From assembly GCA_009992505.1 (NCBI GenBank), contig JAACVI010000225.1, positions 1 to 34,176 of the forward strand: DNA of 34,176 nt. The letters are read 5' to 3'. The first letter of the stretch is position 1, and each line of letters begins with the position of its first letter. Shown here piece by piece: positions 2,887 through 33,843 of the stretch. The notes below the pieces were generated by a model. The model was not told the DNA's origin. It saw nothing but the letters and a program-made list of their open reading frames with translations, and ran no database searches. Source of the stretch: Myxococcales bacterium (GTDB taxonomy: Bacteria > Myxococcota_A > Polyangia > Polyangiales > Houyiibacteriaceae). The position numbers and the translations under genes are program-made.

Positions 2887-2958
2887 TCGTGGGGATGGCG
2901 GCTCGCCGCGGCGGGTCTGGCTTGCCTGACCGGAGGCTTTCGACTAGTCCGGCTGCCG

Positions 2959-4313: not shown

Positions 4314-4333
4314 GAGCCGGGACGCGCCGCGCG

Positions 4334-11855: not shown

Positions 11856-14800
11856 CTATACCTGGATCTGAATGCCCAGCGCCTCGCGCAGCCGGAAGTA
11901 GTTCTCCGACACGCTGAAGAGCACGAGCTCCTTGACCTTGTCCTTGGGCGGCAGATCCACGGAGCCCTCGGGCGGCAGCGCTTGAACCATGCGCGCGGCC
12001 GTCTCGAGATCACCACAGACCAGGAAGCCGGCACGCAGCGCCGTCAGCTCGACGGTCTGCATCCAGCGCTTCACGTCCGTGCGCGCGCCCGCCTCGACGA
12101 ACTTGCGACAGACCTGCCGCAGGCCATCCTGGGCCGTGGGCGAGAGATGCTGCGCGAGCTGCTGCGCCAGCGCGTCGACCTGCGGATCCGCGGGAGCCAC
12201 GCCCGAGAGGCGCATGGCCGCGAGCAGGATCATGCGCAGCTCGGAGTGGGAGCTCAGGAGCGTGCGGACGAAGTGCTCGGAGAGGTAGTAGGTCAGGAAG
12301 CGGGCGGTCACGAAGGCCAGATCCGCCGGCTTGTAGCCCGAGAGCAGGGTCGCGCCGCAGATCACGGCGGGCGGGTTGCTGCCGGCGACGTGCGCGAGCC
12401 CTCCGGGCGTCTGCGCCTGGAGGAAGAGGCGCGGCTGAATCGGGATGCTCAGCACGTTCATGGAGAAGCCGAACGTGCGCGCCAAGGTGACGGTCGAGGT
12501 CGCGGGATCCACGACCTTCAACTTGTGGATGTTCAGCGCCTTGTCCGAAGCCGTCTTGGCGGCGTGAACGGCCGGCGCGACCAACTCCATGATCTTCGAG
12601 ACGAAGCGGTCCTCGTCGGGATGGAAGAGGTCCGTGAACCAGGCGTTTCGTTCCACCCGCGCCTGCGGACGGATCATGTCGCCTTGCTTGTACTGCGTAT
12701 AGAACTGCTGCTGCTCCGCGTCGGCTTTCTTGAGGAAGTTCAGTGTGGAAGCCAGACACCAAGCCTTGTCGTATGCGCGAGCGTCGAAGTAGAGCTTGTA
12801 CAGCGCTCGATAGGAGTCGACGCGATAGGGATCCTGCCGCAACAGCCATTGATGTTCGCGGATGGCGTTGTCCACGCCGTTGGGCAAGGTGCTGAAAATC
12901 TCGGCCAGGATCTGGTGCTCGGTCGGATCCTCCGGCCGCAGCTTGCTGGCGGCGTCGAAGGCCTGCGCGGCGGCGTCGTAGTTGCGCTGCCGATCGCGGT
13001 AGATGATGCCGAGGTTATGCCAGAGGTTGAACTCGAGCTCGGTCTCGTTCTTCCCGAGGATGCGATGGAGCATCTTGCGGAATGCACGCTCCAGATTCTT
13101 CCAGTCCTTCTTGCTCGTCCAAATCTTGTTGATGGCCTCGAACGCCTTCAGCTGAGTCGGATCGATGTCCAGCGCTTCGTTGAACTTGTCGACGGCGCCA
13201 TCGGGGTTCTTGAGCTCGTCGCGAATGACGACGGCGATGGTGTAGAGATACTTCGACTTGGCCTTGGGCCTATCATCCAAATCCGAGACGATCTGGATCG
13301 TATCAATCGCCTGTTCCCACTGCTTCGTCTCCTGATAACACACGAGCAACTTATGCAGGATGATGTGGTCTTCAGGGTTGATCAGCGAAGCATCGGAGTA
13401 CGCCTGAATGGCCTTCTGCTGATTGTTGACCTTCTCGCGCCACAGATCACCGATGGACACCAGGATGTCGAAGCGCTCCTTGTCCTCCTCGGCGACCTCG
13501 AGCAGCTGCTTCTTGAAGTGGATGACCTGCTCCCACTCCGACTGCTGCTCGTACAGGCCGATGACGGCCTCGAGCGTGGGGCGGTGAAGCGCATCCTCCT
13601 CCAGAGCCTTGTCGAACATGTTGAGCGCCTTGCGACGCTCGCCCTGCTCGCGCTTGATCACGCCCAGGCGATAGAACGTGTCCGTGGTCTCGTCCGGCGC
13701 GAGCGAGTCGCGATGGTGGACGAGGAGCATCTGGTAGTACTTGAAGGCCTTGGTCCAGTCCTCCGTGGCGTAGTGCGCCGCGGCCAGCGCCATCAACGTG
13801 GGCAGGTCGCCCGTGTCGAGCTGGTGCGCCTTGGTCAGCGCCTTGATGGCCTCCTCGTGATTGCCGAGCTTGGTGGCCGCGCGTCCCAAGGAGAGCGCCA
13901 GCCGATGCTGCTCCTCCGCGGGGCGCGCGTTCGAGCGCTTCGAGAGCATCGAGAGGAGCGGGAAGGCATCCTCCCAACGCTCCTGCTGCAGGTAGTGATC
14001 GACCAAGGGCATGGCCGCGTCTTCGCTGTCCGCGTCCGCCGCGTAGGCGGTCTCGAAGATGGAGATGGCGCGAACGTGCTCCTCGAGACGCTCGTCGTAG
14101 ATGCGGCCCATGTCGACCAGCAGGCGAGCCTTCTGTCGCGGCGCCTCCGTGTGCTTCGCCTCGGCCTCGAGCGTGCGCGCGGCGGCGACCCAGTCGCCCG
14201 AATCGACCTGGATCTTACGCATCGCCTCCAGGGAGGGGACGTGCGCCGGATTCAGCCCCGTCGCGGTCTCGTAGTGATCGAGCGCCGAGATCCGATCGCC
14301 CAATTCCTCGTCGAAGATGCGTCCCATGCGGAACTCGAGGTCCACTCGCTGGGACGGATCCGTGAGCTGCCGTGACAGCTGCTCCATCATCTCCAGCGCC
14401 GACGCATGGTCGCCGCGCTTGTCGTACAGGCGCGTCAGAGCGTCGAGCGCCTGACCATCCTGATCGTCGATGGAGAGCACCTCGAGGTAGCAATCCACCG
14501 CGCGATCGGCGTCGCTCACCTCGCCGCCGAAGACGTCGCCCATGGCCTTCCACAGGCGGATCTTCTCTGCCCTATCGGGCGTGGCCTGGATGTGACGCTC
14601 GTAGGTCTCCACCAGGGAGTCCCAACGCTGCATGCTGCGATAGAGGCGCGCGAGCCCGCCCAACGCGGCCTCGTGGTTCGGGTCGAGCTCGAGGATGCGC
14701 TCGAGTCGCTCGGCGGCCTTGTCCGGCTTGACGAACTCTTCCTCCCACATGCCCGCGAGCTGCGTGAGGATGCCGATCTGCTCCTTCTCGGTGCCGGCGA

Positions 14801-17800
14801 CCTCGAGCTGGGTCTCCAGGATACCGAGCAGGTCCTGCCAGCGCTCGGTCTTGGCGTAGAGCCGCTCGAGTCCGCGCAGGGCCTCGCGATGGTGCGGTTC
14901 GGTCTGGAGGATCTGAGCGTAGCTCTCGATGGCCTTGTCGACGTCGCCGATGCGATCTTCGTAGGCCTCCGCGATCTGCAGATGGGCGAGGAGCCTCGCC
15001 TCCGGCTCCTCGACGGCCGCGGCCTTGCGCTCGAGGATACCGAGCAGGTCGTCCCAGCGCGCGTCGCGCCGATACACCCCTTCGAGTGCCTCGAGGGCCG
15101 CCACGCTGGTCGGATCCGCGTCGAGGGCCTTCTGATAGTAGCCGCCCGCCTGCTGCGGCTGCCCCAGCTGCTGCGCCGAGAGATCACCGATTTGCACGTA
15201 CGTCTCGGCCTTGACCCGCGCGTTGTCGGTCATGTCGACCAAGCGCGCGAGGACCTCCGAGAGCGTGTCCCACTGCTGGGTCGTGCGGTAGAGTTCAGCC
15301 ATCTGGCGCATGGCCGGCACGTTCGCCGGATCGAGCGCCAGGATCTGCTGGTAGTAAGGGATCGCGTACTCGGGATGCCCGAGCTCCTGACCGTACCAAC
15401 GTGCGCAGCTCAGGCAGATCGCGATCTTGGTCTCGGCGTCCTGAACCTGACCGAGGGCCTCGTTGGCGGCGGTCAACAGATCGTTCCAGGCGTTGGTCAG
15501 ACCGGCGACGCGCTCGAGCTCGTTGGCCGTCTCGCGGTCGGAGAAGTCCTCCATCCAGGCGACCTTCAAGGCCTCGTAAGCCTGCTCGGGCTCGCTCAGC
15601 TCGCGCTCGTAGACGGTGGCGACCTTGCGCAAGAGTCCGACGCGCTCGGCCGTCGTGCCGACCGATTCGGCGCGCACGATGTAGACCTCGATCAGCTCCT
15701 CAAAGCGCATCCCTTCGCGATGCAAGACCTCGAGCCGCTCGAAGGCGGGACCGTTGATGGGCTCGAGCTCGAGGATGCGTTGATAGGCCGAGGTGCCCCG
15801 ATCCGCGTCCTCCACCATCGTCGCCCACATCTGGGCGATGCCGAAGAGCTGGGCGACCTGGGCCTCGGGATCCGTCAACGACGCGGCGCGTCGCTCCATC
15901 ACTCCGATGGCGTCTTCCCATTGGTGCTCTTGGCGATGGATGTGCTCCAGGGCATCGAGCGCGGTAAAGTTGGCGGGGTTGAAGCTCAGCGCGCTGTTGT
16001 AGGCCTCGACCGCGTCCATCGGCTGCGCGAGATCATGGCTGTAGAGGTAGCCGAGCTGCATGTAGACGCCCTCGAGAGCGGCGTCTTCGAGCGTCGCTGC
16101 GCCCACCTCGATCACGCGATGAAGCGTGTCCACCAGCTCGTGGTTCTGCCCCGATGCGCGGTGGATCTCCGCCATGTGCATCAGTGCTTCGGCGTTGGAC
16201 GGATCGACGTCGAGGACCCGCTCCCAGCTCTCGAGGGCGTTGCGCTCGCGCTCGAGCTTCTCGTACCAGATGCGGCCGAGGTCGGCGTAGATCGCCATGC
16301 GCAGAGCGTCGTCCTCCGCGACGGCCACCTCACGGTCGAGGATGTCGACGAGGTCTCGCCAGTTCTCCTGTGCCGCGTAGATGTCGCCCAGGGCGCTGAG
16401 CGCTTCGGGATCCTCTCCACGAAGATCGAGCACCTTGCGCCACAGCTCGATGGCCTGACCCGCGTCGTCGAGTTGGTCGTAGGCCAGGCGCGCCATCTTG
16501 GCCAGGGTCTCCGCCTGCTGGGCATCGCCGACGACGACGTCGAGCTCACGCTCGAAGGTCGAGAGCAGGCTCGGCCAGTTGGCCTGGCGCGAGTAGATCT
16601 CGGCCAGCGCGCGGATGGACTCGGCGTGCTCCGGCTCCAGGTCCGCGAGGATGTGCTGGTAGACCCGGATCGACTCGTCCGTCTGGCTCAGATCCTGCTC
16701 GAGGACCTGACCGAGGCGGTAGTTGAAGTCGACCTTGTCCGCCGTGATGTCGGCGATCGCGGCGCGCTTGCGCAGCACCTGCGCCAGTGCCTGGGGAGCC
16801 CCGTAGTCCAGATAGATCTGGTCCAGGGCCGCCAGAGGCTCGTCGTCCTCGGGGGCGACGCCGAGCACGTAGCGGTAGGTCTCCTCCGCACGCGCAACGT
16901 CCTCCAGCTCCTCCGCATAGACGCGAGCGAGACGCTTGCCTAGCTGCCCCTTCACTTCGCCATCGAGAGGCGCCTCGAGAATGCCGGCGTAGGTGTCGGC
17001 GAGTTGGGGCCAGCCCTCCAGGATCTGGGAGAGCCGCTCCACCTCGGAGAGCGAGTGGTCGTGACGCGGATCCTCCATCAGGGCGCGCTGCATCCACACG
17101 AAGGCCTTCTGATGATCGCCGGCGCGGTCCTCCGCGACCTCGCTCATGCGATGCATCATCGAGACGCGCTCGGTGGGATCGGGCTGGTAGTGGAGCTGCA
17201 CCTCGTGCACGTTCAGCAGGCGATCCCACTGCTCCTGCACGCGGTAGAGCGGTTCGAGGATCTCGCCCACTTCGAGCGGGCGCACGCCGTCGGCGAAGAG
17301 CAGCTCGAGCGCGGAGAGCGCCGAGCCGTGCTCGGGTGCCGCACCCAGGATGTCGCGGAACTGCGCGATGGCGCGCTCGACGTCCCCGAGATGCTGCTGG
17401 AAGATCAGACCGAGTCGGAACTGCAGGTTGAGCACGTCGTCCGGGCTGGACGCGACCTCGATCTCCTGTTCCAGAACGGCAGCGAGCTCCGGCCAGCGCT
17501 CGGTCGCCTCGTACAGGCTGTCGAGGGCCGTGATCGCCTGCTCGTGGACCGGATCGAACTCGAGCACGATCTTGTAGCGCTCGATGGCCGCCGGGATGTT
17601 CTCGGTCTGGATCTGGTGAATCTGCGCGGCGCGCAGGGCCATGTCGACGACGTCGTCCGGGGACTGCTCACGAAGCGTCTCGATGGCGGAGTCGTAGAGT
17701 GCCGTGACCCGCGGCCAGCTGCCGGTCTCGTCGGCGAGCCGCTCGAGGGACGAGAGCGTCTTGTCGTTCCGTACGTCGAGGGGCAACGCGCGGGCGTAGG

Positions 17801-20800
17801 CTTCGAAGGCGGCTCCGGCCTGTTCGAGTTGGAACTCGTCCAGCTCGGCCACCTGATGAAGCAGCTCCACCTTCCGGATGGGATCCTGCTCGTGGAGAAT
17901 CTGCACCTCGTGAACGGCGATGAGCTTCGCCCACTCCCCGAACTGCCGATAGATGGGCTCGAGCACGGCCGCTGCGGCCACGGGCTCCTTGCCTTCTGCG
18001 ATCAACGCCTCCAGCGCCGCCAAGGTCGGCAGGTGATCCGGGAAGACGTCGAGGATCTCGCGGTAGATGTCGACGGATCGCGCGGCGTCGTCGAGACGGC
18101 GATGCCAGAGCTCGGCGATGCGATAGCGGTAGCTGATGACCTCGCTGGGATCGTCCGCCAGGTCGGCCTCGCGCTCGAGCACGCTGAGCAGATCCTGCCA
18201 GGCCTCGGTCGCCTGGTAGAGGGCGTCGAGCCGACCGATGGCGGTCAGATCGTCAGGATCGATCTCGAGGATGCGTTGGTAGGTGTCGATCGCGTTCGCG
18301 ACGTCGCCGACCTCGCGCTCGTAGACCGTGCCCACCTCGGCGTAGATGCGCTTCTTCTCCTCGGGGTCGTAGACGATGTCGGCTTTGCGCGTGTAGACGC
18401 CGAGCAGCTCCTCCCAACGTTCCAGACCGAGGTAGAGCTGAATCAGCTTGTTCAGCGCGCCCATGTCCTCGGGATCCGTCTCGAGGACCTGCTGGTAGAC
18501 CTTGATAGCATCCTGCGGACGCTCGAGGATCTCCTCGTAGGTCGCCGCGGCGCGGAAGAGGTAGGGCTTCTGCTCCTCGGGCGTGGGGAGCATCGACGCC
18601 TTCTGCAGGTAGATGCTCGCCAGATCGTCGTAGCGCTCCGAGATTTGGTACAGGCGCTCCAGCGCGTCCGCCGCTTCGATGCAGGTGTCGTCCAGCACCA
18701 GCACGTGCCGGTAGTGGGCGATGGCGCCTTCGGCGTCGTCCAACGACTCTTCACGAATCTGGGCGGCCTTGATGTGAAGCGCGGCGGCGAGGACCGGGTC
18801 CTCGAGATCCGCCACTCGCTGCTCGTAGACCTGGGCCAGAGACTCCATCGAACCCGTAGCGCGGGCGAGGCGTTCGAGCTCCTCCTGCGTGCGCAGGTTG
18901 CCGGGGTCCTCGCCCAGAGCGCGGGCCGCGCTGGTGAAGGCTGAACCCGGATCGTCGAGGGCGACCTCGTACAGCTCCGCGATCTGGTGCAGAAGCTCGA
19001 CGCGCGCCTCGGGGCTGCTCGAGTGCTTGGCCTGGATCTCGTGGATGCCCACGAGCTTCGCGTAGGCGCTCTCGGACCGATAGATGGGCTCGAGGATCTC
19101 GGCCACGACCAGCTGATGGTCGTCCGCCGCGAGCAGACGCTCGAGGGCCGCGAGGGCTTCGGAGTTGGTCTGGTGACGCTCCAACACCTCTCGGTAGATC
19201 TCGACTGCCGCCGGCACGGCGTTCATGCGCTCTTCGCGCAGCTGTGCCGAGCGCAACATCAAGGCGAGCTGCTGCTCCTCGTCCGTGGCCAGCTCGAGCT
19301 GGCGGTCGACGTTGTCGGCCAGATCGGCCCACATCTCCCGGCGCGCGAACAGCGTGTCCAGCGCGCCCAAGGCGGATTGGCTCGTGGGATCCATCTCGAG
19401 AATCTCACGCTGGAGCCGGATGGCCTCGTCGGGATCCTCGAGCGCCGTGTCCGAGATGGCGGCCATCTGGGACAGCAGCTCTTCCTTGTCGGCAGGATCG
19501 CTGGCGAGCTCGGCGCGACGTCGCAAGATACCGAGCAAATCCGACCAACGCTCCGTGCGCCGGTAGAGCATCTCGAGGGCTGCGAGCACCTCGACGTCGC
19601 CCGGATCGAGGTCGAGCACCTTGCGATAGGCGGCGACGGCGTGATTGACGTCTTCGAGCTGCACGTCGTGAATGCGCGCGGCCTTGGTCCACAGCGACCG
19701 CGCCAGATCCTCGTCGACGGCGTCGGTCGCCAGACTCTCGATCAAGGCGACCAGGTCGCCGAAGCGCTCGTGCTCGGTCGCCAGCATCTCGAGGCGAGCC
19801 AGCGTGTCTTCGTCTTGCGGCACCTCGCGAAGTGCCTCGGCGTAGGCCGAGAAGGCGCGCGCGGGATCGCCGATGTGCTCGCCGAGGACGGCACCGATCT
19901 TGGTCAACAGCTCCAGGCGCTCGTCGACCGAGGCACTGCCGTCGTGCAACACGCGCAGGGCCTTGACCCACATCTCGCCGTTGCCGCTGACCGCGTACAC
20001 GGGCTCCAGGATTCGGGCCGCTGCCACGGCGACCTCTTCGTCGCCGAGCAAGCGCTCGAGCGACTCGCGTGCGCCGTCGTGCTCCGGCAAGAGCGTGAGC
20101 ACCTCGCGGTAGAGCTCCACCGCACGGCCCTTCTCGGCCAGATGCTGCTCGAGCACCCTGCCCTGTCGGAACTTCAGCGCCGCCAGCTCCTCGGCCGACT
20201 CGGGTCCGAGGTCGATGCGCCGCTCGAGGATGTCCGCGAGGTCCTGATAGCGCTCACGCGACTCGTAGAGGGCGTCGAGGCGCTGGAACGCCTCGGATTC
20301 GTCATCGCCCCACTCCGCGAGGATGCCCTCGTAGGCGGTGATGGCGGTGTCCGCGTCCGCGAGCTGCTCCTCGAGCAAGGCCGCGCGTTCGTAGGCCAAC
20401 GCACGCCTGGCGTCAGCGTCGAGCGTGAGCTCTATGCGTCGATCGAAGATGGCGAGCAGCTCCGCATAGCGCTCGGTCTGTCGATACAAGTCTCCCAGCG
20501 CGGCGATCGCTTGCTCATGATCTCCACGCTCCTCGACCACGGCCGAGTACTGGGCGATGGCCTCGTCGACCTTGCCCATGCGCGAGAGGATGCCGCCGAG
20601 GCCGATGCGCAACTCGAGCGCTTCGTCCGGATCCGCATCTGCGGCCGCGGTGATCGCTTCGCCGTAGGCCGCGACCACGCGGTCCCAGCCTTCGGTCGCT
20701 TCGGCGAGACGCTCGACGTCTTCGCGCAGGATCTCCTGTGACGGCGCCAGCGCGAAGGCCTCGAGGCTCTTCTCGAAGGCCGTGTCGGCGGCTCGAAGCT

Positions 20801-21944: not shown

Positions 21945-22097
21945 GCTTCGTTCCGCCTTGTTCTCAGCAAACTGGAGTTCTCAACAACCCCGGAAAACCA
22001 TCTTACGCCCGACCGACGATCGACGACGAGGCCTCATTAGGCTCGCCTTCGACACGCATTCCCCGACCCGACCGGCAGGTCGAGGAGGAGCCACGCA

Positions 22098-22970
22098 TCA
22101 CGGCCCCGTGCTGAGTTCGCCCAGCTTGTCCCGCGCTGCCTTCAAGTAGTGGGCAGGCGCGTCCTCGCCCGCCGAGTCCACATACTTCTTCAAGTAGCGA
22201 CGACCTTCCTCGCGATTGCCCTCGAGGGCATACGTCCAGCCGAGGGAGAAGAGCGCGTCGGGCATGGACGGCACCACGTCGAGCGCGGCACGGAACTGCA
22301 AGATGGCGCGCGTGTTGTCGTGCTGCTGCTGATACACGGTGCCCAGAAGGTGGTGCAGGTGCGCCTCCTCCTCCGTTCCCGGCATCGCCACCTCGAGCCC
22401 GGACTCGAGCACTTGCCCCGCCTGCTCGGGATATCCCAGCTCGGCGTAGAGCCGACCGAGCTGCGAGTAGGCCTGGAGGAAACGTGGACCATGCTCGATG
22501 GAGTCGCTGTAGTGCTGCAGCGCGCTCTGTATGTCGTCGAGCTCCTCGTCGACCTGGGCGAGCTTGTAGTACGCCTTGAACAACGAGCCATCGATCTCGA
22601 TCGCCTTCTGCAGGGCTTGCTTGGCGCCGTTCCAATCTTCGAGCTGCATCAGCACGGTGCCCAGCTTCTCGGGATAGCCCGCGACCTCACCGTTGATGGC
22701 GATGGCCTGGTTCAAGTCTTCCTTGGCGCGATCGAAGTGACGCAGCTCGATGTGCACCAGGGCCAGGTTGTAGAACGCCTGGTCGTTCGTGCGATCGATG
22801 GCCGTCGCCCGTTCCAGCGCCTTGGTGGCGTCGATGAAACGCTGCTGCTGAGCGTAGACCACCCCTTGGTTCATCTGGTTCATCGACTCCACGCGTTCGC
22901 GAGAGCAGTTGCCCCCGGTCAGGACGAGGATCGCGAGGGGAACCAGGACGAAAATCTCGAGCCGCTTCAT
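22098..22970 (-). CDS. TPR lipoprotein
   Basis: ATG at 22970: MKRLEIFVLVPLAILVLTGGNCSRERVESMNQMNQGVVYAQQQRFIDATKALERATAIDRTNDQAFYNLALVHIELRHFDRAKEDLNQAI... Lipobox LTGGNC followed by tandem TPRs. The N-terminal part of the listed 348-aa ORF is probably untranslated. Confidence 0.88.
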   Translation of the reverse strand: MKRLEIFVLVPLAILVLTGGNCSRERVESMNQMNQGVVYAQQQRFIDATKALERATAIDRTNDQAFYNLALVHIELRHFDRAKEDLNQAIAINGEVAGYPEKLGTVLMQLEDWNGAKQALQKAIEIDGSLFKAYYKLAQVDEELDDIQSALQHYSDSIEHGPRFLQAYSQLGRLYAELGYPEQAGQVLESGLEVAMPGTEEEAHLHHLLGTVYQQQHDNTRAILQFRAALDVVPSMPDALFSLGWTYALEGNREEGRRYLKKYVDSAGEDAPAHYLKAARDKLGELSTGP

Positions 22971-23177
22971 GCAGTTTGCTCCTAGGACACAGCGATGGGT
23001 CGGCCGACCACACCGGCCGGGCGATAGTACGGGAGAAGACGCCCCAGGCTCAACCGCAAAACGGGGTCGAAGAGCGGGTTTCGATCGTGAATTGCGACAC
23101 GCGCGCGCCACGTGAACGCGTCGAAGGGCCACGGCGACAGCCATGGCCCTTCGGCGGATCTGGAAGCCAGGGAGGCG

Positions 23178-25160
23178 TCAGCCGCCCGAGGCCGTGAGCA
23201 TGAAGGGATAGTTGACGATGACGATGCCACCGCCGTCGGGTGCCGGGAAGGTCCAGCGTCGCACCGCGCCAGCGACGCAGCTCTCGACCGCTTGGTTACG
23301 CAGCGTGGTGTCCTGCACCATCGAGGTCTGGACCGCGCCGCTCGCGGAGATGATGAAGCGCACCGTGACGCGACCCTCGAGGTCGGGACGCTGGTTCAGC
23401 TCCTGCTCGTAGCAGAAACGCACCTCGTTGACGTGCCGACGAATGACTCGCTGAATGACCTCGCGGGAGAGCGAGCCGCGGACATCGGCCGCGCCGGAGC
23501 GAATCTGGGGCACGCGAGCCGCGCGACCGTGGAAGCCACCGGCGCCCTGGCCGTAGCCGTTTCCTTCGCCGCCGCCACCACCATGACCGATGGTGCCGAG
23601 GTTGCCGAGGCCGATCGTGCCCTCACCGGTACCACCGCCACCGCGACCGGTGCCGTGCAGACCGAGACCACCGAAGCCGAAGTTCTCACCAATCTGGTCG
23701 CCCATCAACGCACCCAAGGCGCTCATCGGGTCGTTGCCCAGAGCCGTGTCCGCGCCATAAGGCGAGGTGGGCGAGTTCCACGAACCCGTCATCGAACGCA
23801 GGGTGCCGAGGACACCGGCGTTGCGCGCCATCTCCTGGGCCGCATCGCGCGCCATGTGCGGGTCTTCGTTGTCCTGCGGACCTTCGATGGCGTAGCGGTT
23901 GTTGGTCTTCTTGGACTCTTTCTTGCCCATCTGACCTTCTTCGTCCTTGTGGCGCTTGCCCTTGCCGCCCTCGTCGTCGTCCTGATTGCTCTCCTGCAAC
24001 CAGTCGGGCGTCTCCTCCTCCTGGGTCTCCGGCGGCTCCATCAGGTACTGCACCAAGCGCGAGTCCGCGTTGAGCAAGTCGAGGGAGAGGGAGGCCGAGT
24101 TCGGCGGCGCGAAGTAGAAGAGCACCAGCATCAGCCCGAAGACCAGCATCGAGCCGCCGATGTAGAAGAACGGCGTGTAGTCGATGCCCGTCATGCCGGC
24201 GCCGATGCGCTTGCCCGCGTTCACGGGTCGCACGACGAAGGTGAACTCGCGGTGATGAATGCGCGCCGTGGCGCCTGCGGGGAGCGCGTATTGCTTGGCG
24301 CCAGGCAGCTCGGCGCACGCGCTGAGTCGCCCCTGCGCGTCGAGGTCCGTCAGGCTCATCGTCTGGTCACCGACCGTGACCTCGCCCGTGGCCCCCGCCG
24401 GGATCACCGCGGCCACACCACCACCCGCTTCGACGCAGACGGGCATGCGCGAGGTTCCCAGGGCCTCTTCGCCGAGGAAGTAGTCGACCTGCTCCTTGCC
24501 CACCGCTTCGCCCACGTAGTAGCTGCGTGCGGGGGAGAGGTGGTCGACGTTCAGGACGCTCTTGTCGCCCCACATGACGACGACCTCGACGGCCTGCTCG
24601 GTCGTCTCGACCTCCTCCGGGGAGACAGGCGGTCCGCTGGCGACGATGCCGTACTGCACCTGGTCGGGGTCGACCGGCGCGGCGCTCACCGCAGCAGCCG
24701 GAGCCGCGAAGGGGTTGGGCAGCGCGGCGCCCGCGGCGAAGGGATTCGGGATGGCGGGCTTCACCACGGGTGCGGGCATCGGCGCGGGCGGAGCCGACGG
24801 CATCGCCACCGCGGCCACACCGCCCCCAGCCGCTGCGTCGTCCTCCGCTACGGCGGCGCCGATCTCGACCTCTACTCGGGTATCACCGAGCAGGATCTCA
24901 TCGCCGTTCTCGAGCTTGCACTTGTTGACCTTCTTGCCGTTGACCACCGTGCCCGAGGCCGAGCCCAGGTCGATGATGAAGATCTCGTCGGGGCCGCTGA
25001 CCTCGATCACCGCGTGCATACGAGAGACGTTGTCGTCGTCGATGCGCAAGTGACTGGAAGGCAGCTTGCCCACCTTGATGATGTCCTGCTCGAGTTCTTC
25101 CGTACGAATCAACTCCCCGCCGGAGTAGATGCGGAATGTCATCGGGATCTTGTTGCTCAC
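23178..25160 (-). CDS. FHA-domain, single-TM, Gly-rich protein with AgmX/PglI-type C-terminal domain (GltG/PglI-like)
   Basis: FHA: IIKVGKLPSSHLRIDDDNVSRMHAVIEVSGPDEIFIIDLGSASGTVVNGKKV; TM: YIGGSMLVFGLMLVLFYFA; Gly-rich linker GRGGGGTGEGTIGLGNLGTIGHGGGGGEGNGYGQGAGG; TonB-like tail VNEVRFCYEQELNQRPDLEGRVTVRFIISASGAVQTSMVQDTTLRNQAVESCVAGAVRRWTFP. GTG at 25160 (VSNKIPMTFRIY) preceded by GAGG is the likely start. Confidence 0.9.
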   Translation of the reverse strand: MSNKIPMTFRIYSGGELIRTEELEQDIIKVGKLPSSHLRIDDDNVSRMHAVIEVSGPDEIFIIDLGSASGTVVNGKKVNKCKLENGDEILLGDTRVEVEIGAAVAEDDAAAGGGVAAVAMPSAPPAPMPAPVVKPAIPNPFAAGAALPNPFAAPAAAVSAAPVDPDQVQYGIVASGPPVSPEEVETTEQAVEVVVMWGDKSVLNVDHLSPARSYYVGEAVGKEQVDYFLGEEALGTSRMPVCVEAGGGVAAVIPAGATGEVTVGDQTMSLTDLDAQGRLSACAELPGAKQYALPAGATARIHHREFTFVVRPVNAGKRIGAGMTGIDYTPFFYIGGSMLVFGLMLVLFYFAPPNSASLSLDLLNADSRLVQYLMEPPETQEEETPDWLQESNQDDDEGGKGKRHKDEEGQMGKKESKKTNNRYAIEGPQDNEDPHMARDAAQEMARNAGVLGTLRSMTGSWNSPTSPYGADTALGNDPMSALGALMGDQIGENFGFGGLGLHGTGRGGGGTGEGTIGLGNLGTIGHGGGGGEGNGYGQGAGGFHGRAARVPQIRSGAADVRGSLSREVIQRVIRRHVNEVRFCYEQELNQRPDLEGRVTVRFIISASGAVQTSMVQDTTLRNQAVESCVAGAVRRWTFPAPDGGGIVIVNYPFMLTASGG

Positions 25161-25386
25161 GATCGCCTCGACTGCTGGCGGCCACTTCGACGTGGCGCGC
25201 CTCAAAGAATCTCAGGGGTGGATGACTCGCCATCGAGCCAGCGCTAGGACAGACACCAGGGACGGCCGCAGGTTCCGCTCTCGGATTACAAAAGCAGCGG
25301 CTCGACTTTGACCAGGCTAACGTAGACCAGGCCCGAGGTAGACCGGGCAGCCAGGTCCCAGGAAGACCCGGCCCAGGGCGACTCGC

Positions 25387-25677
25387 TCAGAGGTCCTCGA
25401 CGGACTTGAGCATCTCGGGGATGAAGTGTTCGCGAATACGGATCAGCGAGGCGCGCTGTCCCCGGCGACGGACGTTCAGCATCTCGCCGTCCGGCCTGAC
25501 CAGATCGCCCGAGACGACATCGTCCTCGAAGTCATAGGTGGTGGCGTCGCCGCCCCCACCCCCGCTGCCGGCCGTTCCAGCCGTGTCCTGCGCGGAGGCG
25601 AAGCTCGGCGCGAGCGGTAGGGCCATGCCCGCGGTCAGCGAGAGCAGGATCATCGTCTTCGTCATTGGCTTGGTCAT
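25387..25677 (-). CDS. Small exported protein (GltF-position candidate)
   Basis: ATG at 25677 preceded by AGAGG: MTKPMTKTMILLSLTAGMALPLAPSFASAQDTAGTAGSGGGGGDATTYDFEDDVVSGDLVRPDGEMLNVRRRGQRASLIRIREHFIPEMLKSVEDL; clear signal peptide. Confidence 0.8.
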   Translation of the reverse strand: MTKPMTKTMILLSLTAGMALPLAPSFASAQDTAGTAGSGGGGGDATTYDFEDDVVSGDLVRPDGEMLNVRRRGQRASLIRIREHFIPEMLKSVEDL

Positions 25678-25847
25678 CTCGAACCTCTTGGCGGCCGAAC
25701 TGTCGGGTCGAAAGAATAGCGTCACGGCTGGGCCGTGGTCAACGCCGCCCCCACGAGGAGTACGACTATCGCACGGTGATGTAAGAAAGTTCGCACTCGA
25801 GGAGGTCGCCGCAGGGCCACGACGTGGCCATGCGCTGACCCATGGGG

Positions 25848-27320
25848 CTAGTTGCCCTGGGGTGCCGGAGCGGTCCCGCCCCCGGGAGCGGGCTGCGCTT
25901 GTTGTCGTTGCTGGGCGTCGGCCTCGCGCTGCATCTGCTCGGCCTCGCGCTGCATCTGCTCGCCCTCGCGGAGAGCGTCGATCGTCTGCTGGATGATCTG
26001 CAGGCGACCTGGACGACAGGCGTTGGCCCGCGCAGCACGCCGACGACGCTGGGCGGCGGTGCCGTGCTGGGACCTCTCCTCACGGCAATGGTGGGTGACC
26101 TGTTCCAGTGCATCGGCGTAGCGGGTGTGATTGCCCGCCTTGGCCACGAACTGGTCGAAGTAGCCCTTGGCGCGCAGCAGATCGGGCTCCGCGCCGCTCA
26201 GGTAGTTGTGAAAGAGCACGCCGAGGTTGAAGTAGGCCTCGGGACGGTTCCCGTCGAGCTCGATGGCGTGCTCGTAATGCGCCTGCGCTTGGTCGTAATG
26301 CTCGAGTCCACGCTGCGCCGCCCCGAGCCCGATCACGGCGTCGTAGTCCGTGGGCCGCAGCGCCACGGCGCGCGCGAAGGATCGCCGTGCATCCTCGTAG
26401 CCACGGAAGCTCAAGGTGATCTCGGCGAAGTTCATGTGCGCCTCGAACATGTTGTCGTCCAAGGCGACGGCACGCTCGAAGAGCCGAAGGGCCTCGATGA
26501 TGTCGCCCTTGCGCATCTTCGCTAGCCCCCAGGTGTTGTAGATGGGCGCGTAGTCGTGGTTGATCAGCTGGGCCTGGCGGCAAACGACCTCCGCCAGATC
26601 GAGGGAGGACTGGCGCACTTGGCGATCGTTCGTCCGCGCCTGATCCAGATAGAGCAGCGCCATCTCGCTGAACGCGGGCAGGTAGCTCGAGTCGATGGCC
26701 AACCCGCGGCGCAGATTGCTCAACGCCTCGGCGAGGTTGGCCGCACCGCCAGCCCGCCTCTGCACGATGGCCAGGTTCACGTAGCCCGAGGTGCACTGGG
26801 GATCGTCGTGAATGGCGCGTTGGAAGGCACCCTGGGCGCCCGCCGTGTTGCCGCTCTGCAGATCGAGCAGCCCGATGGCCACCCGAGCTCGGCACAGCTG
26901 GGCGTTCGCCTGCAGGGCCTGGTTGTAGTAGCGACGGGACTTGTCGGTGTCGTGACAGCGATCGGCGCTGAGCCCCGCCATGTAGAGAGCCTCGGCGAAG
27001 TGTCCGCCTTGAGCCTCGTTGGCCTGCTCGAAATGCGAGATCGAGTCGTCGCACGCCTGCTGGTTCCAGCCGCGGGTCTCGTAGCCGTTGAAGGCCGCGA
27101 CGCCGGCGGTCCAGCGGTCGTGCGCCTCCTCGGTCACGCCCTCACCACCGGCCGTGTGAATGGCACGGCCGCTGGCGTCGGTCGCTGGGGGGGTCGTGCT
27201 CCCGCCACCCGAGCCTCCGGAGCCACCTCCGCAGGCCGTGAGACCGAAGAAGGCGATGGCCAAGGACGCTCCGAGGGCACCTCGCTGCGTTGCCAAGGGG
27301 CTATGGATGAACTTCTTCAT
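25848..27320 (-). CDS. TPR lipoprotein (AglT/GltE-like)
   Basis: MKKFIHSPLATQRGALGASLAIAFFGLTACGGGSGGSGGGS (lipobox LTAC), then tandem TPRs (ALRLFERAVALDDNMFEAHMNFAEITLSFRGYEDARRSFARAVALRPTDYDAVIGLGAAQRGLEHYDQAQAHYEHAIELDGNRPEAYFNLGVLF). Start overlaps the upstream stop (ATGA, 27317-27320). Confidence 0.87.
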   Translation of the reverse strand: MKKFIHSPLATQRGALGASLAIAFFGLTACGGGSGGSGGGSTTPPATDASGRAIHTAGGEGVTEEAHDRWTAGVAAFNGYETRGWNQQACDDSISHFEQANEAQGGHFAEALYMAGLSADRCHDTDKSRRYYNQALQANAQLCRARVAIGLLDLQSGNTAGAQGAFQRAIHDDPQCTSGYVNLAIVQRRAGGAANLAEALSNLRRGLAIDSSYLPAFSEMALLYLDQARTNDRQVRQSSLDLAEVVCRQAQLINHDYAPIYNTWGLAKMRKGDIIEALRLFERAVALDDNMFEAHMNFAEITLSFRGYEDARRSFARAVALRPTDYDAVIGLGAAQRGLEHYDQAQAHYEHAIELDGNRPEAYFNLGVLFHNYLSGAEPDLLRAKGYFDQFVAKAGNHTRYADALEQVTHHCREERSQHGTAAQRRRRAARANACRPGRLQIIQQTIDALREGEQMQREAEQMQREADAQQRQQAQPAPGGGTAPAPQGN

Positions 27321-30300
27321 GACGCACCTCCGGCAGGGCTTGCGGCATCTGTGGCCGGCTCCGTGTCCTCGTCATCGCCTGTGCTCAGTTCGACGGCGCC
27401 AGGATCACCCAAGGGCGCGTTCATGTAGCTCGGCGCACCGCGCAGCTCTGCGGCGACCGGGTACTGCCTCGGGTTGAGTCGGTTCAGCTCGCTCTCGCAG
27501 ATGGTCGAGTACTCGTTGAACCAACGCACGTTCGTGGCTGTCCGCAGACAGAATTCGAACTTGCTGATGGCCTGAACCCGGACTGGCTCGAGCGGACCAT
27601 CGAAGGCGTCTACGTAGATGTCGTAGAGCTCCGGGTCCGCCTCGATCTCCTCCGGGACAGGCGCGTCCTGCACGGCATCGATGATGCTGATGTACATCTG
27701 GCCGATGCGTGCCGCGGCAGCGATCTGCCACGGGGGCGACTCCAAGGTCACAGCGTCCGTGACGGGCACGCGCAGCGCCGCGACCTTGTTGTACTCGGTT
27801 TCCGTGGCCTGCAGCGCAGTCTGCTTGGCCTGGATCCAAGCCATGAACTCGGTCTGCGCCCACTGGTTCACCCGGTCGAGGCTTCGACCGCCGCTATAGC
27901 GCGGGAAGTGAATGGTCTGGAACTCCGCGAATTTGTACTCGGCCAAGTAGAAGAGCGACTGCGCCGTCGAATCGACCGCCTCTCGAAGCCAGGCGACCTT
28001 CTCTCCCTGGGTGCCATCGAGGGCGTTGATGGCCTCGGGAGTTCCCTCCCAAGCGTGGGCCGCGGCTTCGAAGAAGCGCTTGGCGTCGTCCTTCCGATCC
28101 AGGCTCCAGTAGGCCATGGCGATCTTCAGGTTGGCGCTGATCAGCTGGTGCGGCATCGCCGTGCGACGGTAGTCGCGCAGGTAGCGCTTGTAGTGGTCGA
28201 TCACCCTCGACCAGCTCTCCGCGCGCTCGTAGATGGATCCGAGAGCGAAGACGACCTCGGAGGTCTGACGCGGCAGAGAGCGCTTGTAGTTGCGAGCGAA
28301 GAGCGCGACGTCCGCCTCTGCCTTGTCCGGCTGGTTCAACCCCAGCCGGAAGAAGACGGCGTTCTGAAGCGCCTCGGAGGCGATGGCGCAGGTGCCGCCT
28401 TCGCGTTCGGCGTCGGTGCAACCGTGGCCGTCCTCGCCGGGGAAGCGGCGAGCGAACTGCTCGTAGTAGTCCGCCGCCTGTTCATAGAAGGCCAAGGCGT
28501 GGAAGTTCGCGCCCACCAGGTAGACGGCGCGTTTGGCCCACTCGCTGTCCGCGTAGCGCGTGATGAGCACCTTGCGCACCTGGATCGCGCGACCGAGGAG
28601 ATGAGCCGCCTCGAAGTTGAGCGCCGCGTTGTAGAGCACCTCGTCGAGACGTCCGCACTCCTGGAAGCGGCGGAAGATGCGCACGTAGGTCGAAGCCGCG
28701 CGCTTGTAGTTCTGCTGCTCCTGGAGGCCCTCCGCCTCCTTTCGAAGCACGTCACATCGAAGCTGTTGCAGCGTGCCGCACAGCGTCTCGTGATCCGCGA
28801 GTTTCTCAGCCGTGGAACAGTAGGCGGCGAAGAGCGGCTCGATGTTGTCCTTGATCTCGAGGATGCAGCTCAAGCGATGGGGTTCGCGCATGGCGCCCAT
28901 CACGTTCAAGGAATCGAGGTAGAGGTTCGCCGCGTACTCGGCGAGATCGCTGTCCGTGTTGTTAAGCGCGATGTCGCGGAACAGGACGGCGGCCTCCTCG
29001 TAGTGGTTCGACTCGTAGTAGATGCGAGCCTCGCGATACTTGATCGTCGCGAGATCCTCGCTGTCCGGCACGAAGCAGCGGTAGCGACGGAAGGCATTGA
29101 TCATGCCCTCCTCGAGCGCGGTGAACTCACGCTGACGGTACTGCGCCTGCGGATCTTCAGGCTCGGCGGCTCGCCGACCGCGTCGACCGCGTCTGCCCGA
29201 CGAAGCACTGCCACGGACGTCCCGCTCCCGCCCCTGGTACTGCTGCTGGTACAGGTTGTTGTAGCAAATCACCGAAGCGTAGGCGGCGTCCGAGGTGAAC
29301 TCGCCCTGCGGATTCATCTCCACGACGGTGTCGTAGGCAGGTCCACATCGGGCCCAGTCCTCCATCTTCCACAAGAGCTCCGCGTAGTAGTAGGAGACCT
29401 TGTAGGCCGTGGGCCAATCGCGCCTGTCGATGTCCGGATACTCGAGGTCGCCCATGTCGGGGAACTTCGAGAGCAGGAGCTGATAGAGCCCCGACGCCAG
29501 AGTCATCGTGCCGCGATCGTTGGTACCCGGCTGGGTGTCCGTGCCGATCGCCTCTCGGTGCCAAGCCGTGGCCAACCAGGCCAAGGTCTGCGCCGTCTCG
29601 GCCTTGCATTGAAGTAGCGCGTCGGCGGCATGCCCGCTTGCGGCGGTGTAGGCGTCATAGACGTCGACCAGGCGTTGGAGCTCGCGGCTCTGCTCTGCCT
29701 TGGGTCGCGACGAGATCACCGCGTTGGTGACGCGTGCCTGCCAGTAACAGAGCTTGTCGCTGTTCGCGTTCTCGCTCATCAGGCTGTGGTAGACGCCGAT
29801 CGCCTCCGGCCATTGACCTGTGTCGAAGTAGAGTTCGCCGAGATGTTCGAGCATCTCGATGGCTTCGGCGTCATTGCTTGCGTAGCGTCTGAAGAACTCG
29901 AGCGCTCGGCCGGGTGTACCGACTTGCGCGTAAGGTAGAATCAATTCTCGCCGCGCTTGTCGCGCCAGGTTGGCCGCGTCCGTGGCGTCAGGATTCTGGG
30001 TCGCGAATTCGACCACTTCGACGAATTTCTGCAGGGCGCCGCGGAAGTCCTGTTGGTTGTAGGCTGCCCACGCGGTCTTGTAGAGCGCGTAGCCGTAGAC
30101 ACGGTTCTGCTCCGGTGGGAACTCCGTGACTTTTTCGTAGAAGCGCTGCGCCGCTGCCATGTCGCCGTCTTGGAAGAAGAACTCGGCGAAGGAGAGGTAG
30201 GCGTTCGGGATGAACCGGCTCTGGGGATAGCCCTTGATCAGGCGGTGATAGACCTGCCGGGCGCGGTCGCGCTGCTGCAGCTCGTCCAGGGCGAACGCCA

Positions 30301-31108
30301 GCGAGAAGAGCACCTCGTCCATGCGCCGATAGTCCGGATGGTCACGCACCAAGATGGCGTAGGTCTGGATCGCCTGCTGGCGCGACTCGTCGAGCGCGGC
30401 CTGGGCCGTCCGCTGACTGCCACGCGCCTGCGTGCAGTTCTGCGCGTTCTTCTGGACGCGGCAGGCTTGATAGATCGGATCGTCGAAGGAGCGCACCCGC
30501 GCGGTGAGCGACTGCTGCATCTCGAAGTAGGTCTCCGCGAGGCGCAGGAGGATGTCCGGGCGCTGCGGGTTGTTCGCCCGGGTGTTCTGCACCAGACGAC
30601 GGAGAATCTGCACCTCGCGCTGGAGGATGGTGAACGCGCGGGCTTGGGTCTGCTCGCGGTTCTGCGCCGTGCTCGAGTCGATCGTGATCGAGGGTCCGGT
30701 CGGCCCTTGCTTCTTGGTCTCCTTGGTCTGCACCTCCGCGGTCCGCAGATGGGACGCGGGTGCCGTGCCCGTGGACGCGGCTGCGTGAGCAGGAGCGTTG
30801 CTCGGGCACTGGGCCACCGACTGGCTGGCGCGCGGCGAGATGCAGACGCCGTTGTCGACGGCTGGCGCGCTCGCTCCACGTTGGCCCGCGGCCGCCGTGG
30901 CGGGCTGGTCCGCGTCGTCGTCCGCGTCGTCGTCCGCGTCGTCGTCCGCGGCCGGCGTGGCCGGCGCGGCCTGGCGATGTGCCGGGCGCGCCCGGCGGCC
31001 TCGATGACGGCGCTGAGCGTCGGCGACCGAGGCGCTGCCGAGGCAGATGATCATGAGCACGCTCAGCGTGCTCAGCAGATCGCGCAACGAGAATCGTCTG
31101 CTTCCCAT
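27317..31108 (-). CDS. Large exported TPR protein (AgmU/GltD-like)
   Basis: ORF 27317..31126; ATG at 31108 gives MGSRRFSLRDLLSTLSVLMIICLGSASVADAQ signal peptide, then an Ala/Asp-rich region and multiple TPR-like repeats (ILLRLAETYFEMQQSL, VLFSLAFALDELQQRDRARQVYHRLIKGYPQSRFIPNAYLSFAEFFF, HLGELYFDTGQWPEAIGVYHSLM). Confidence 0.87.
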   Translation of the reverse strand: MGSRRFSLRDLLSTLSVLMIICLGSASVADAQRRHRGRRARPAHRQAAPATPAADDDADDDADDDADQPATAAAGQRGASAPAVDNGVCISPRASQSVAQCPSNAPAHAAASTGTAPASHLRTAEVQTKETKKQGPTGPSITIDSSTAQNREQTQARAFTILQREVQILRRLVQNTRANNPQRPDILLRLAETYFEMQQSLTARVRSFDDPIYQACRVQKNAQNCTQARGSQRTAQAALDESRQQAIQTYAILVRDHPDYRRMDEVLFSLAFALDELQQRDRARQVYHRLIKGYPQSRFIPNAYLSFAEFFFQDGDMAAAQRFYEKVTEFPPEQNRVYGYALYKTAWAAYNQQDFRGALQKFVEVVEFATQNPDATDAANLARQARRELILPYAQVGTPGRALEFFRRYASNDAEAIEMLEHLGELYFDTGQWPEAIGVYHSLMSENANSDKLCYWQARVTNAVISSRPKAEQSRELQRLVDVYDAYTAASGHAADALLQCKAETAQTLAWLATAWHREAIGTDTQPGTNDRGTMTLASGLYQLLLSKFPDMGDLEYPDIDRRDWPTAYKVSYYYAELLWKMEDWARCGPAYDTVVEMNPQGEFTSDAAYASVICYNNLYQQQYQGRERDVRGSASSGRRGRRGRRAAEPEDPQAQYRQREFTALEEGMINAFRRYRCFVPDSEDLATIKYREARIYYESNHYEEAAVLFRDIALNNTDSDLAEYAANLYLDSLNVMGAMREPHRLSCILEIKDNIEPLFAAYCSTAEKLADHETLCGTLQQLRCDVLRKEAEGLQEQQNYKRAASTYVRIFRRFQECGRLDEVLYNAALNFEAAHLLGRAIQVRKVLITRYADSEWAKRAVYLVGANFHALAFYEQAADYYEQFARRFPGEDGHGCTDAEREGGTCAIASEALQNAVFFRLGLNQPDKAEADVALFARNYKRSLPRQTSEVVFALGSIYERAESWSRVIDHYKRYLRDYRRTAMPHQLISANLKIAMAYWSLDRKDDAKRFFEAAAHAWEGTPEAINALDGTQGEKVAWLREAVDSTAQSLFYLAEYKFAEFQTIHFPRYSGGRSLDRVNQWAQTEFMAWIQAKQTALQATETEYNKVAALRVPVTDAVTLESPPWQIAAAARIGQMYISIIDAVQDAPVPEEIEADPELYDIYVDAFDGPLEPVRVQAISKFEFCLRTATNVRWFNEYSTICESELNRLNPRQYPVAAELRGAPSYMNAPLGDPGAVELSTGDDEDTEPATDAASPAGGAS
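30908..30950. repeat. 12-bp tandem repeat (gtccgcgtcgtc, three full copies plus 7 bp)
   Basis: Direct reading at 30908-30950; encodes the DDDADDDADDDAD tract near the N-terminus of the GltD-like protein. Confidence 0.9.
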
Positions 31109-31113
31109 CTTCC

Positions 31114-32829
31114 TCACCTCCCACACTGGTTCGTGACTTGCTGGCGGTAGAAGCCCAGCTCATCGCGCCAGTACTCCCCGTTGAAGGGCCAGAGCTGGTG
31201 CTCCTCGTCGACCTGCACGTCGCCGCGGCCGGTGCGGCGCGCAGCCGTCATCTGCTGCTGCGTCTCCTGGTCGAGCGTGCCGCGCTGGAAGGTCGCGATC
31301 TCCAGTTCGAGAGTGTCGACCTGGTTCGAGAGATCCTGAAGCTCGTCGATCAGGCGCGTGTAGCGACCGCGCGCGAGATCACCTGTCTGGTCGACGGCGA
31401 AGCTCTTGGCGACCGCGATGTCCTGCAGGATGCGGGCACCCAGGGACGAGTTGCGGAACTCCGCGGGATCCTGCGCGAGGCGCGCCTCTTCGGAATCCAG
31501 CAGCTCCACGTATTCGAGGTTTCGGAGCAACGTGCGATCGGACAGGGCGGTGGACACGATGCCGCGAATCTGTGGCGAGAGGTTCGCCTCGCCGGAGCGC
31601 ACGCGCTTGAGGAACTCGAAGAACTGCGTGTTGTCCTGGAAGCTCCCCAGGGTCTGCTCGAGCTCCGTGCGGACGGGATCGTAGCGCTCGTGGAACTGAC
31701 CGACCATCGCCTGGGCGTTCTCGACCTGGCAGTTTACGAAGAAGGTCACGCCCTTGAGGACCAGCGCCTCCGGGTAGTAGGAGTCGGCGAAATAGGGCGA
31801 GAAGAGGGTGTGGATGTTGCCCAAGGCGCGCGAGTACTCGTCCGCGAGGAAGAAGGCCCAGGAGGACTCGAACAGGCCGTCGAGCCAATACTCGCTGCCC
31901 TGATCGACCTGGCTCCAGGCCTCGACCGCCTGACCGAGGATTCGACCGTCGATACTGCGTTCGCCCGTCTCGCTGTCCGTGTGGTTCGCGGCCGTGTAAT
32001 AGACGCGCGCGAGGGAGATCCAGGCGAGGTTCTGCATGCGACCTTCGTCTTCCACACCCGAGATGTCGCCGGACTCGATGCCATCGACGATGGCGCGGAA
32101 GGCCGCGATCGCGGGACGCGCCTGGCGCATGCGAATGTAGGCGATTCCCTCGAAGAACTTGGCCTTGACGTAGAAGTTCGAGCCGGTCTCGACGCGGCCG
32201 AAGAGGTCGATGGCTTGCTGGAACTCGCCCTGCCCGTACTTGAAGCGGCCCATCATGTAGACGAGCTGGTTGAAGAGCTCACTCGTCTCGGCCGTGTTGA
32301 ACTGATCGAGCTGGTCGACGCCGTAGCGACCGACCTTCTCGATGATGCCGGCCGGCTCGGGCAGCTGCGAGGCGAGCTGGGCCAGCCATTGCAGGGTCTG
32401 GGCGAAGTAGAGGTGGCCCTGTCCCTGCTGACCGATCTCGTCGAAGAGCGCGAGCGCGGACTGGTAGTAGTGCAGGTGGTAGAGGCACTTGCCCAGGAAG
32501 AACTGCGCCTTCTGCACATTCGCCGGCGCGTCCTGGCTCTCGCCCTCGACCACGCGCTGGAACTGCACGGCGGCCGCCGGGTAGTTCTCCTGCTGGTAGA
32601 GCCGGAGCGCGTTCGCCAGAGCCTCGGACGGCGGACCCTCGGCGGGAGGCGCGGGAGGCTGCCCCGTCTCGTCGATGCTGAAGTCCATGTCCTGCGCGCT
32701 CGCGCTCGCCGGTGCGAGCAGCGCGCTCACCAGGAGTCCGGCAGCGATGGCGAAAAGCCCGATCGGGGCGAAGGAACTCCTGAAGAGTTGGGAAAAGAGA
32801 ACCGTCATCGGAAGATGGTTGCGGCTCAT
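31114..32829 (-). CDS. Exported TPR-repeat protein, first gene of the run
   Basis: ORF 31114..32979; ATG at 32829 preceded by AGGAG with 7-nt spacing; MSRNHLPMTVLFSQLFRSSFAPIGLFAIAAGLLVSALLAPASASAQDMDFSIDETG signal peptide, then TPR-like repeats (ALANALRLYQQENYPAAAVQFQRVV, AQFFLGKCLYHLHYYQSALALFDEIG). Confidence 0.82.
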   Translation of the reverse strand: MSRNHLPMTVLFSQLFRSSFAPIGLFAIAAGLLVSALLAPASASAQDMDFSIDETGQPPAPPAEGPPSEALANALRLYQQENYPAAAVQFQRVVEGESQDAPANVQKAQFFLGKCLYHLHYYQSALALFDEIGQQGQGHLYFAQTLQWLAQLASQLPEPAGIIEKVGRYGVDQLDQFNTAETSELFNQLVYMMGRFKYGQGEFQQAIDLFGRVETGSNFYVKAKFFEGIAYIRMRQARPAIAAFRAIVDGIESGDISGVEDEGRMQNLAWISLARVYYTAANHTDSETGERSIDGRILGQAVEAWSQVDQGSEYWLDGLFESSWAFFLADEYSRALGNIHTLFSPYFADSYYPEALVLKGVTFFVNCQVENAQAMVGQFHERYDPVRTELEQTLGSFQDNTQFFEFLKRVRSGEANLSPQIRGIVSTALSDRTLLRNLEYVELLDSEEARLAQDPAEFRNSSLGARILQDIAVAKSFAVDQTGDLARGRYTRLIDELQDLSNQVDTLELEIATFQRGTLDQETQQQMTAARRTGRGDVQVDEEHQLWPFNGEYWRDELGFYRQQVTNQCGR

Positions 32830-33119: not shown

Positions 33120-33149
33120 ATAATAGGGAGGCCTGTGCGGGAATGTCAA
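33120..33149 (-). promoter_or_regulatory. Candidate sigma70-type promoter for the TPR/glt-like operon
   Basis: Minus strand TTGACA (33149-33144), 18-nt spacer, TATTAT (33125-33120), in a locally AT-richer intergenic region about 290 nt upstream of the best SD-supported start (32829). Confidence 0.55.
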
Positions 33150-33405: not shown

Positions 33406-33843
33406 ATGGTGAACGACATGCAGCGTGTAATCCACCTCGTAGCTCTTGCCTCCCTCCTCGCTCTGCCGACGCTCGCGTCCGGCTGTGCGTCGAGCAGCGT
33501 GGGTGACCCCTGCGATCCAGAGAACGTTCCGTCGGGCGGCTTCAACGCCTCCGAGGCGTATCTGGAGACCAGCTCCGTCCAGTGTCGGACGCGCGTTTGC
33601 ATGGTGTATCACCTGGCTGGCGACACCAGCGATCCCAACTGCGATCCGCTCACGGATCCGAGCTGCCCGTCGCCCGTCGACGTCGAGCAGCGTGTGTACT
33701 GCACCTGCCGCTGCGACGCGCCGGCCGGCTCCAACACGCCCACCTGTGGCTGCCCCGGCGGCTACACCTGCGCCCCCGTGCTTCAGCTCGGCGGCGATGG
33801 CATCCGCGGCAGCTACTGCGTGAAGACGGACACCGTCGAGTAA
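33406..33843 (+). CDS. Cys-rich lipoprotein, hypothetical
   Basis: ATG at 33406 (or 33418): MVNDMQRVIHLVALASLLALPTLASGCASSSVGDPCDPENVPSGG...VQCRTRVCMVYHLAG...YCTCRCDAPAGSNTPTCGCPGGYTCAPVLQLGGDGIRGSYCVKTDTVE; lipobox LASGC, 13 cysteines from the lipobox onward. Confidence 0.8.
   Translation: MVNDMQRVIHLVALASLLALPTLASGCASSSVGDPCDPENVPSGGFNASEAYLETSSVQCRTRVCMVYHLAGDTSDPNCDPLTDPSCPSPVDVEQRVYCTCRCDAPAGSNTPTCGCPGGYTCAPVLQLGGDGIRGSYCVKTDTVE

Follow-up and report, generated by a model that had tools for sequence, protein, structure and literature searches.

A divergent Glt-type gene block with two little-studied lipoprotein partners in a Polyangiales-type myxobacterium

Gliding transducers known from Myxococcus xanthus

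Nearly all knowledge of the gliding machine stems from Myxococcus xanthus, where its genes are scattered over several loci, with the motor and the gltKBAC (cglC-gltBAC) group unlinked to gltD-J (PMC3169522, PMC4488436). In this organism, GltG interacts with the motor protein AglR in the two-hybrid assay (PMC3169522), GltG and GltJ resemble TolA/TonB and might extend as far as the outer membrane proteins GltA/B (PMC5349195), GltI together with GltG constitutes a cytoplasmic scaffold (PMC13104615), and GltA/B/C form an outer membrane subcomplex that is helped by CglC (PMC4488436). Glt homologues in the class Polyangia are already known, with Sorangium, Haliangium and Plesiocystis listed by Luciano et al. 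(2011). The locus considered here lies on a stretch of 34,176 bp (the window; GenBank assembly GCA_009992505.1, contig JAACVI010000225.1) from a Polyangiales-type myxobacterium, and comprises a block of seven genes in the order gltC-D-E-F-G-x-I, in which x stands for a tetratricopeptide repeat (TPR) lipoprotein, and a divergently encoded cysteine-rich lipoprotein.

The window represents one entire contig of a metagenome-assembled genome (MAG) that is itself fragmented (3.75 Mb, 587 contigs, 81.8% complete), and therefore the lack of a gene from the window says nothing about its presence in the genome.

The gltC-D-E-F-G-x-I gene block

The seven open reading frames (ORFs) between positions 11856 and 32829 are all intact, co-directional and located on the minus strand (Table 1). 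The architectures recognized in the initial annotation, which had been made from the DNA letters without database searches, are borne out: a TPR protein, an exported TPR protein, a TPR lipoprotein, a small exported protein, a protein with a forkhead-associated (FHA) domain, a transmembrane (TM) segment and an AgmX/PglI-type tail, a second TPR lipoprotein and a TPR protein of 3362 amino acids. The order D-E-F-G-x-I, which the same annotation had proposed, is real and conserved in relatives, but the TPR protein at its head is GltC, so that the block reads C-D-E-F-G-x-I, and its limits are to be extended beyond the seven genes to the divergent lipoprotein gene. Equally, an ATGA overlap exists as described (genes 2 and 3, at 27317-27320), but the spacing is tight only for the first three genes, with genes 1 and 2 overlapping by 13 bp and later intergenic gaps of 122-244 bp.

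Comparison with the profiles of the Glt families, which had been suggested as a check, gave matches far beyond chance for GltC, GltE, CglF and GltG, with E values from 2e-20 (CglF) to 5e-134 (GltG); CglF is the alternative name of GltF (PMC4488436). The GltC homologue, the ORF of which can be extended to 32979, shares 36-85% identity with its counterparts in ten relatives. GltG, with an ORF extendable to 25205, combines an FHA domain (PF00498) and a single TM segment with an AgmX/PglI TonB-like tail (NF033768, 110 bits). For GltD, the NCBIfam search gave no matching model, and its size, TPRs, export and synteny fit GltD. Likewise no GltI model matched the giant protein at the end of the block, which is assigned by size, architecture and synteny. 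Its C-terminal region (window 11856-12980) contains a conserved non-repeat stretch with invariant W, C, R, G and D residues in 17 homologues from two classes. Profile searches of this region against Pfam and the PDB returned TPRs only and no known domain, and the suspicion, raised by eye, that it might represent a degenerate peptidase was consequently dropped.

Table 1. Features of the Glt-type block and its upstream region, in window coordinates
Feature	Position	Strand	Basis of assignment
gltC homologue, exported TPR protein	31114..32829	-	NF033756 gliding_GltC, 280.8 bits, E 2.7e-83, profile 120-619/622
Probable gltD (AgmU) homologue, 1269-aa exported TPR protein	27317..31126	-	Size, TPRs, N-terminal hydrophobic segment, synteny
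gltE (AglT) homologue, TPR lipoprotein	25848..27320	-	NF033758 gliding_GltE, 91.3 bits, E 6.2e-26; lipobox visible
gltF (CglF) homologue, 112-aa exported protein	25387..25725	-	NF033764 gliding_CglF, 72.7 bits, E 1.9e-20, full length
gltG (PglI) homologue	23178..25142	-	NF033760 gliding_GltG, 448 bits, E 5.2e-134, full length
x, TPR lipoprotein between gltG and gltI	22098..22970	-	Conserved lipobox, synteny, AlphaFold2 model
gltI (AgmK)-type giant TPR protein, 3362 aa	11856..21944	-	Size, architecture, synteny; without signal peptide or TM segment
Promoter-like site upstream of gltC, TTGACA-18-TATTAT	33120..33149	-	11/12 matches, 0.2 expected in shuffles; consensus match only
Cys-rich lipoprotein, divergent from gltC	33406..33843	+	Synteny, invariant cysteines, AlphaFold2 model

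Conservation across the phylum

This layout is neither rare nor degenerate, as it is kept in 80 loci, each from a different genome, and recurs in a second Myxococcota class. Gene order was compared in the matching regions fetched from ten genomes of the class Polyangia, in which C-D-E-F-G-x-I is unbroken as far as the fetched sequence reaches. The 80 loci were retrieved by a GltC alignment scan of genome contigs and evaluated with our own profiles, and the denominators include only loci long enough to judge. Position and profiles are the basis for relating D, I, x, A/B and the lipoprotein to putative orthologues in M. xanthus. In the 80-locus set gltD (76/76) and gltE (67/67) are always present, gltF and gltG are found in 64 of 65 and 58 of 59 loci, x in 49/57 and gltI in 43/54, with part of the gltI misses due to the short stretch covered. 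In all fully covered relatives gltI-type homologues of 3350-4216 amino acids are syntenic. In five of the loci that lack x, gltG is followed directly by hisS, and gltI is likewise missing from that place, which indicates that x and gltI are gained or lost jointly there.

GltC-type proteins were matched in 239 of the 241 genomes of the class, and the cluster is carried, for example, by a genome of 10,327,335 bp (G155). In the GltC tree related genomes cluster together, with two second-cluster paralogues on very long branches. The second class, in which the examined loci show the same order, is probably Bradymonadia. Two joined pairs of loci from this class carry additional genes between gltG and x, namely GltG-tail proteins in L234-L235 (G247), and a tail fragment together with small lipoprotein-like proteins in L248-L249 (G313).

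Two little-studied partners

The machine as such is of a known kind; of interest are the protein x and the Cys-rich lipoprotein, two little-studied partners that almost always travel with the Glt block. Of 75 loci, 72 encode the Cys-rich lipoprotein divergently from gltC, and its gene adjoins gltC in the second class as well, there in some cases co-directionally. Nine cysteines are invariant among 39 sequences, and the AlphaFold2 model is of high confidence (pLDDT 90). Searches of this protein against Pfam and NCBIfam gave nothing above chance, and Foldseek yielded no match in the PDB (best E value 3.6); an EGF-like nature was considered and discarded, with Pfam matches at chance level and nothing from Foldseek. 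In M. xanthus, cglC (gltK), which codes for an outer membrane lipoprotein promoting GltA/B insertion, is divergent from gltBAC (PMC4488436), and because of this shared arrangement we read the Cys-rich lipoprotein as the putative positional counterpart of CglC/GltK.

Protein x, the translation start of which is most likely at 22970 rather than at 23144, displays a conserved lipobox (GG[NDTE]C-SR) and is modelled by AlphaFold2 as a TPR superhelix throughout (pLDDT 94). A relationship to PilW/Tgl-type pilotins was dismissed, as the similarity is that of generic TPRs. The position of x corresponds to that of gltH, followed by MXAN_4865/4864 (agmV), in M. xanthus. While agmV is a motility gene hit by a transposon that Luciano et al. 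(2011) dropped as a likely pseudogene (PMC3169522), mass spectrometry later detected the AgmV product in outer membrane vesicles (PMC4158809). Protein x may thus hypothetically represent the AgmV orthologue.

A wider proposal, which we put forward tentatively and hold to be possible rather than probable, is that the Glt machine has two overlooked subunits throughout the phylum, namely x and the Cys-rich lipoprotein. Protein x would then be orthologous to AgmV and, held by its lipid anchor, act as a TPR protein together with GltI, while the lipoprotein would correspond to CglC and have a fold absent from solved structures. The ancestral layout would be the one that includes x, lacks GltH and keeps GltC in one run with the other genes, the split layout of M. 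xanthus being derived.

Components encoded outside the block

The motor, the beta-barrels and GltJ/AgmX, all of which had initially been noted as lacking, have to be sought beyond the window. An AglRQS-type motor is encoded elsewhere in the same genome, where contig C164 ends in a fragment of an AglR-type gene followed by three ExbD-type genes with the TM aspartate (locus L014, 16705-18951), the third being a paralogue of the first with 69% identity; the proposal of a machine lacking its motor is thus not supported. In relatives, two divergent AglRQS-like operons stand side by side. With respect to GltJ, the absence of the gene beside gltI holds true, but a protein with the architecture of GltJ/AgmX (zinc ribbon, GYF domain, TM segment and tail) is encoded on contig C124 of the same genome, with 68 bits against a cut-off of 450 and with several paralogues in the genome.

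Nor is a lack of the barrels supported. In the same-genus genome G048 and several others, a tandem pair of the gltA/B type (TIGR04565) is located divergently at a distance of 5-8 kb upstream of gltC; among 50 eligible loci, 33 have such a pair no more than 10 kb upstream. Since the contig ends only 1.3 kb upstream of gltC, the absence of the pair is most likely an assembly limit. GltH is the only component whose slot holds another protein: no barrel was observed between gltG and gltI in any inspected locus, where x is found instead, in agreement with the initial annotation, though gltH was not searched for elsewhere.

Other genes were noted as well. The window codes for an MglA-family GTPase of 240 amino acids (2164-2886, minus strand; E 1.7e-64 to MglA in the PDB), which is longer than the canonical-length MglA of 197 amino acids encoded on contig C24; close relatives of the long form are located approximately 8-22 kb from gltI in G155, G159 and G022. 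The assumption that the GTPase of the window is the machine's own MglA is weakened by the MglA on C24. Contig C255 (locus L016, 8231-9790) harbours a gene for a GltG-like protein with TM segment and tail, without an FHA domain, which adjoins genes for an RND transporter. Upstream of the GTPase gene on the minus strand, the window encodes a membrane sulfatase/phosphodiesterase with C-terminal HEAT repeats (4334-7354; PF00884, PF13646); the stretch between the two (2887-4333) has long ORFs on both strands with zero Pfam matches and no convincing gene.

Gliding as the probable output

Family matches and conserved order substantiate the assumption of a divergent trans-envelope machine of the Glt type. 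We consider it probable that this block represents the principal Glt (gliding transducer) operon of its host, a Polyangiales-type myxobacterium, and drives gliding; force transduction for gliding would most likely be its function, as Sandaracinus amylolyticus has been reported to glide (PMC5010890). By analogy to M. xanthus, the proton-driven AglRQS motor would act on GltG, the TonB-like tail of which is predicted to be periplasmic and would reach through the periplasm, with the FHA domain located in the cytoplasm, where GltI would serve as a scaffold. GltC, D, E and F may constitute the periplasmic part that docks on the GltA/B barrel pair in the outer membrane, with the divergent lipoprotein assisting in the insertion or retention of the barrels in the manner of CglC. 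Protein x could act as an additional TPR adaptor, lipid-anchored in a membrane and working with GltI/GltG, and the moving complex would drag surface adhesion sites and thereby cause gliding.

Several observations weigh against this assignment. All NCBIfam equivalog cut-offs are missed, with 281 bits against 450 for GltC, 91 against 225 for GltE, 73 against 90 for CglF and 448 against 650 for GltG, so that these proteins are divergent homologues. The incomplete MAG yielded no gltA/B-type pair, nor a convincing CglB adhesin, for which the match in this genome reaches only 26 bits; the cut-off is 200 bits, and relatives score up to 94. Moreover, the homologous Nfs complex has another job, in formation of the spore coat (PMC3858216). 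As homologous complexes can thus have other tasks, homology alone is no proof of gliding.

The main rival explanation, which we nevertheless judge to be unlikely, follows from this last point, namely that the same type of transducer moves a surface polysaccharide and compacts a spore or cell coat instead of propelling the cell. Nfs relies on the same AglRQS motor and has homologous A-H subunits encoded in the single cluster nfsA-H (PMC3858216), and contiguous C-D-E-F-G genes, accompanied in relatives by a barrel pair close by, are found here, too. Nfs, however, is devoid of counterparts of GltI, J and K (PMC3169522), whereas the window encodes a GltI-type protein and a lipoprotein at the cglC position, and the cluster is found almost throughout the class, in species known as spore-formers or not.

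This near universality, together with the TonB-like tail of GltG and a motor that belongs to the TolQR/ExbBD family, would also be compatible with a housekeeping envelope system of the Tol/Exb type that is kept everywhere as it is generally needed for division or uptake. Such a role appears quite improbable, as the genome possesses separate TolQ/ExbB plus TolR/ExbD-type pairs of its own on contigs C251 and C386, Tol-Pal is devoid of C-D-E-F-I partners, and M. xanthus Glt mutants are specifically gliding-defective (PMC3169522). An ancestral or reduced non-motility envelope machine without motor, AgmX and barrels, as had been proposed at the outset in view of a block without gltH and gltJ and a window without motor, is hardly credible and was rejected once the motor and AgmX-architecture genes were detected elsewhere in the genome, the more so as the barrel pair of relatives sits just past the end of this contig, which is the whole of the window.

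Comparison with known systems

A layout conserved in other classes offers a parts list that is independent of M. xanthus. It suggests as core components C, D, E, F, G, x, I, the lipoprotein, the barrel pair and the motor, while gltH in its slot and gltJ beside gltI are apparently lineage-specific.

Within the same genome, a second paralogous cluster (contig C275, locus L015, 3181-13126) shows a barrel protein and a similar order of C, D, E, a small exported protein and a GltG-like protein; it differs from the block in that the GltG-like protein has no FHA domain, x and gltI are missing, and the family scores are far weaker (GltC 98 versus 281 bits, GltG 190 versus 448 bits). The core complexes of Gammaproteobacteria, Geobacter and Fibrobacter, which consist of aglRQS plus gltC, D, E and G (Luciano et al., 2011), have homologues of C, E, G and probably D in common with the block, but include the motor in the cluster and are without F and I. 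With Nfs of M. xanthus (nfsA-H, G3) the block shares the organization in a single region with C-D-E-F-G contiguous, whereas NfsH is present only there and the GltI-type protein and x only here, Nfs being without GltI, J and K counterparts.

In comparison with the Glt system of M. xanthus (gltD-J, G1; gltK/cglC-B-A-C, G2; aglRQS, M1), gltC stands at the head of the D-I run, x occupies the gltH slot before gltI, gltJ is missing after gltI, and the barrel pair is found, in relatives, several kb upstream of gltC in divergent orientation. On the other hand, both systems have a lipoprotein gene diverging beside the barrel/gltC genes and an unlinked motor, and they share homologous C, E, F and G proteins, a probable D homologue and a giant I-type TPR protein in the same relative order.

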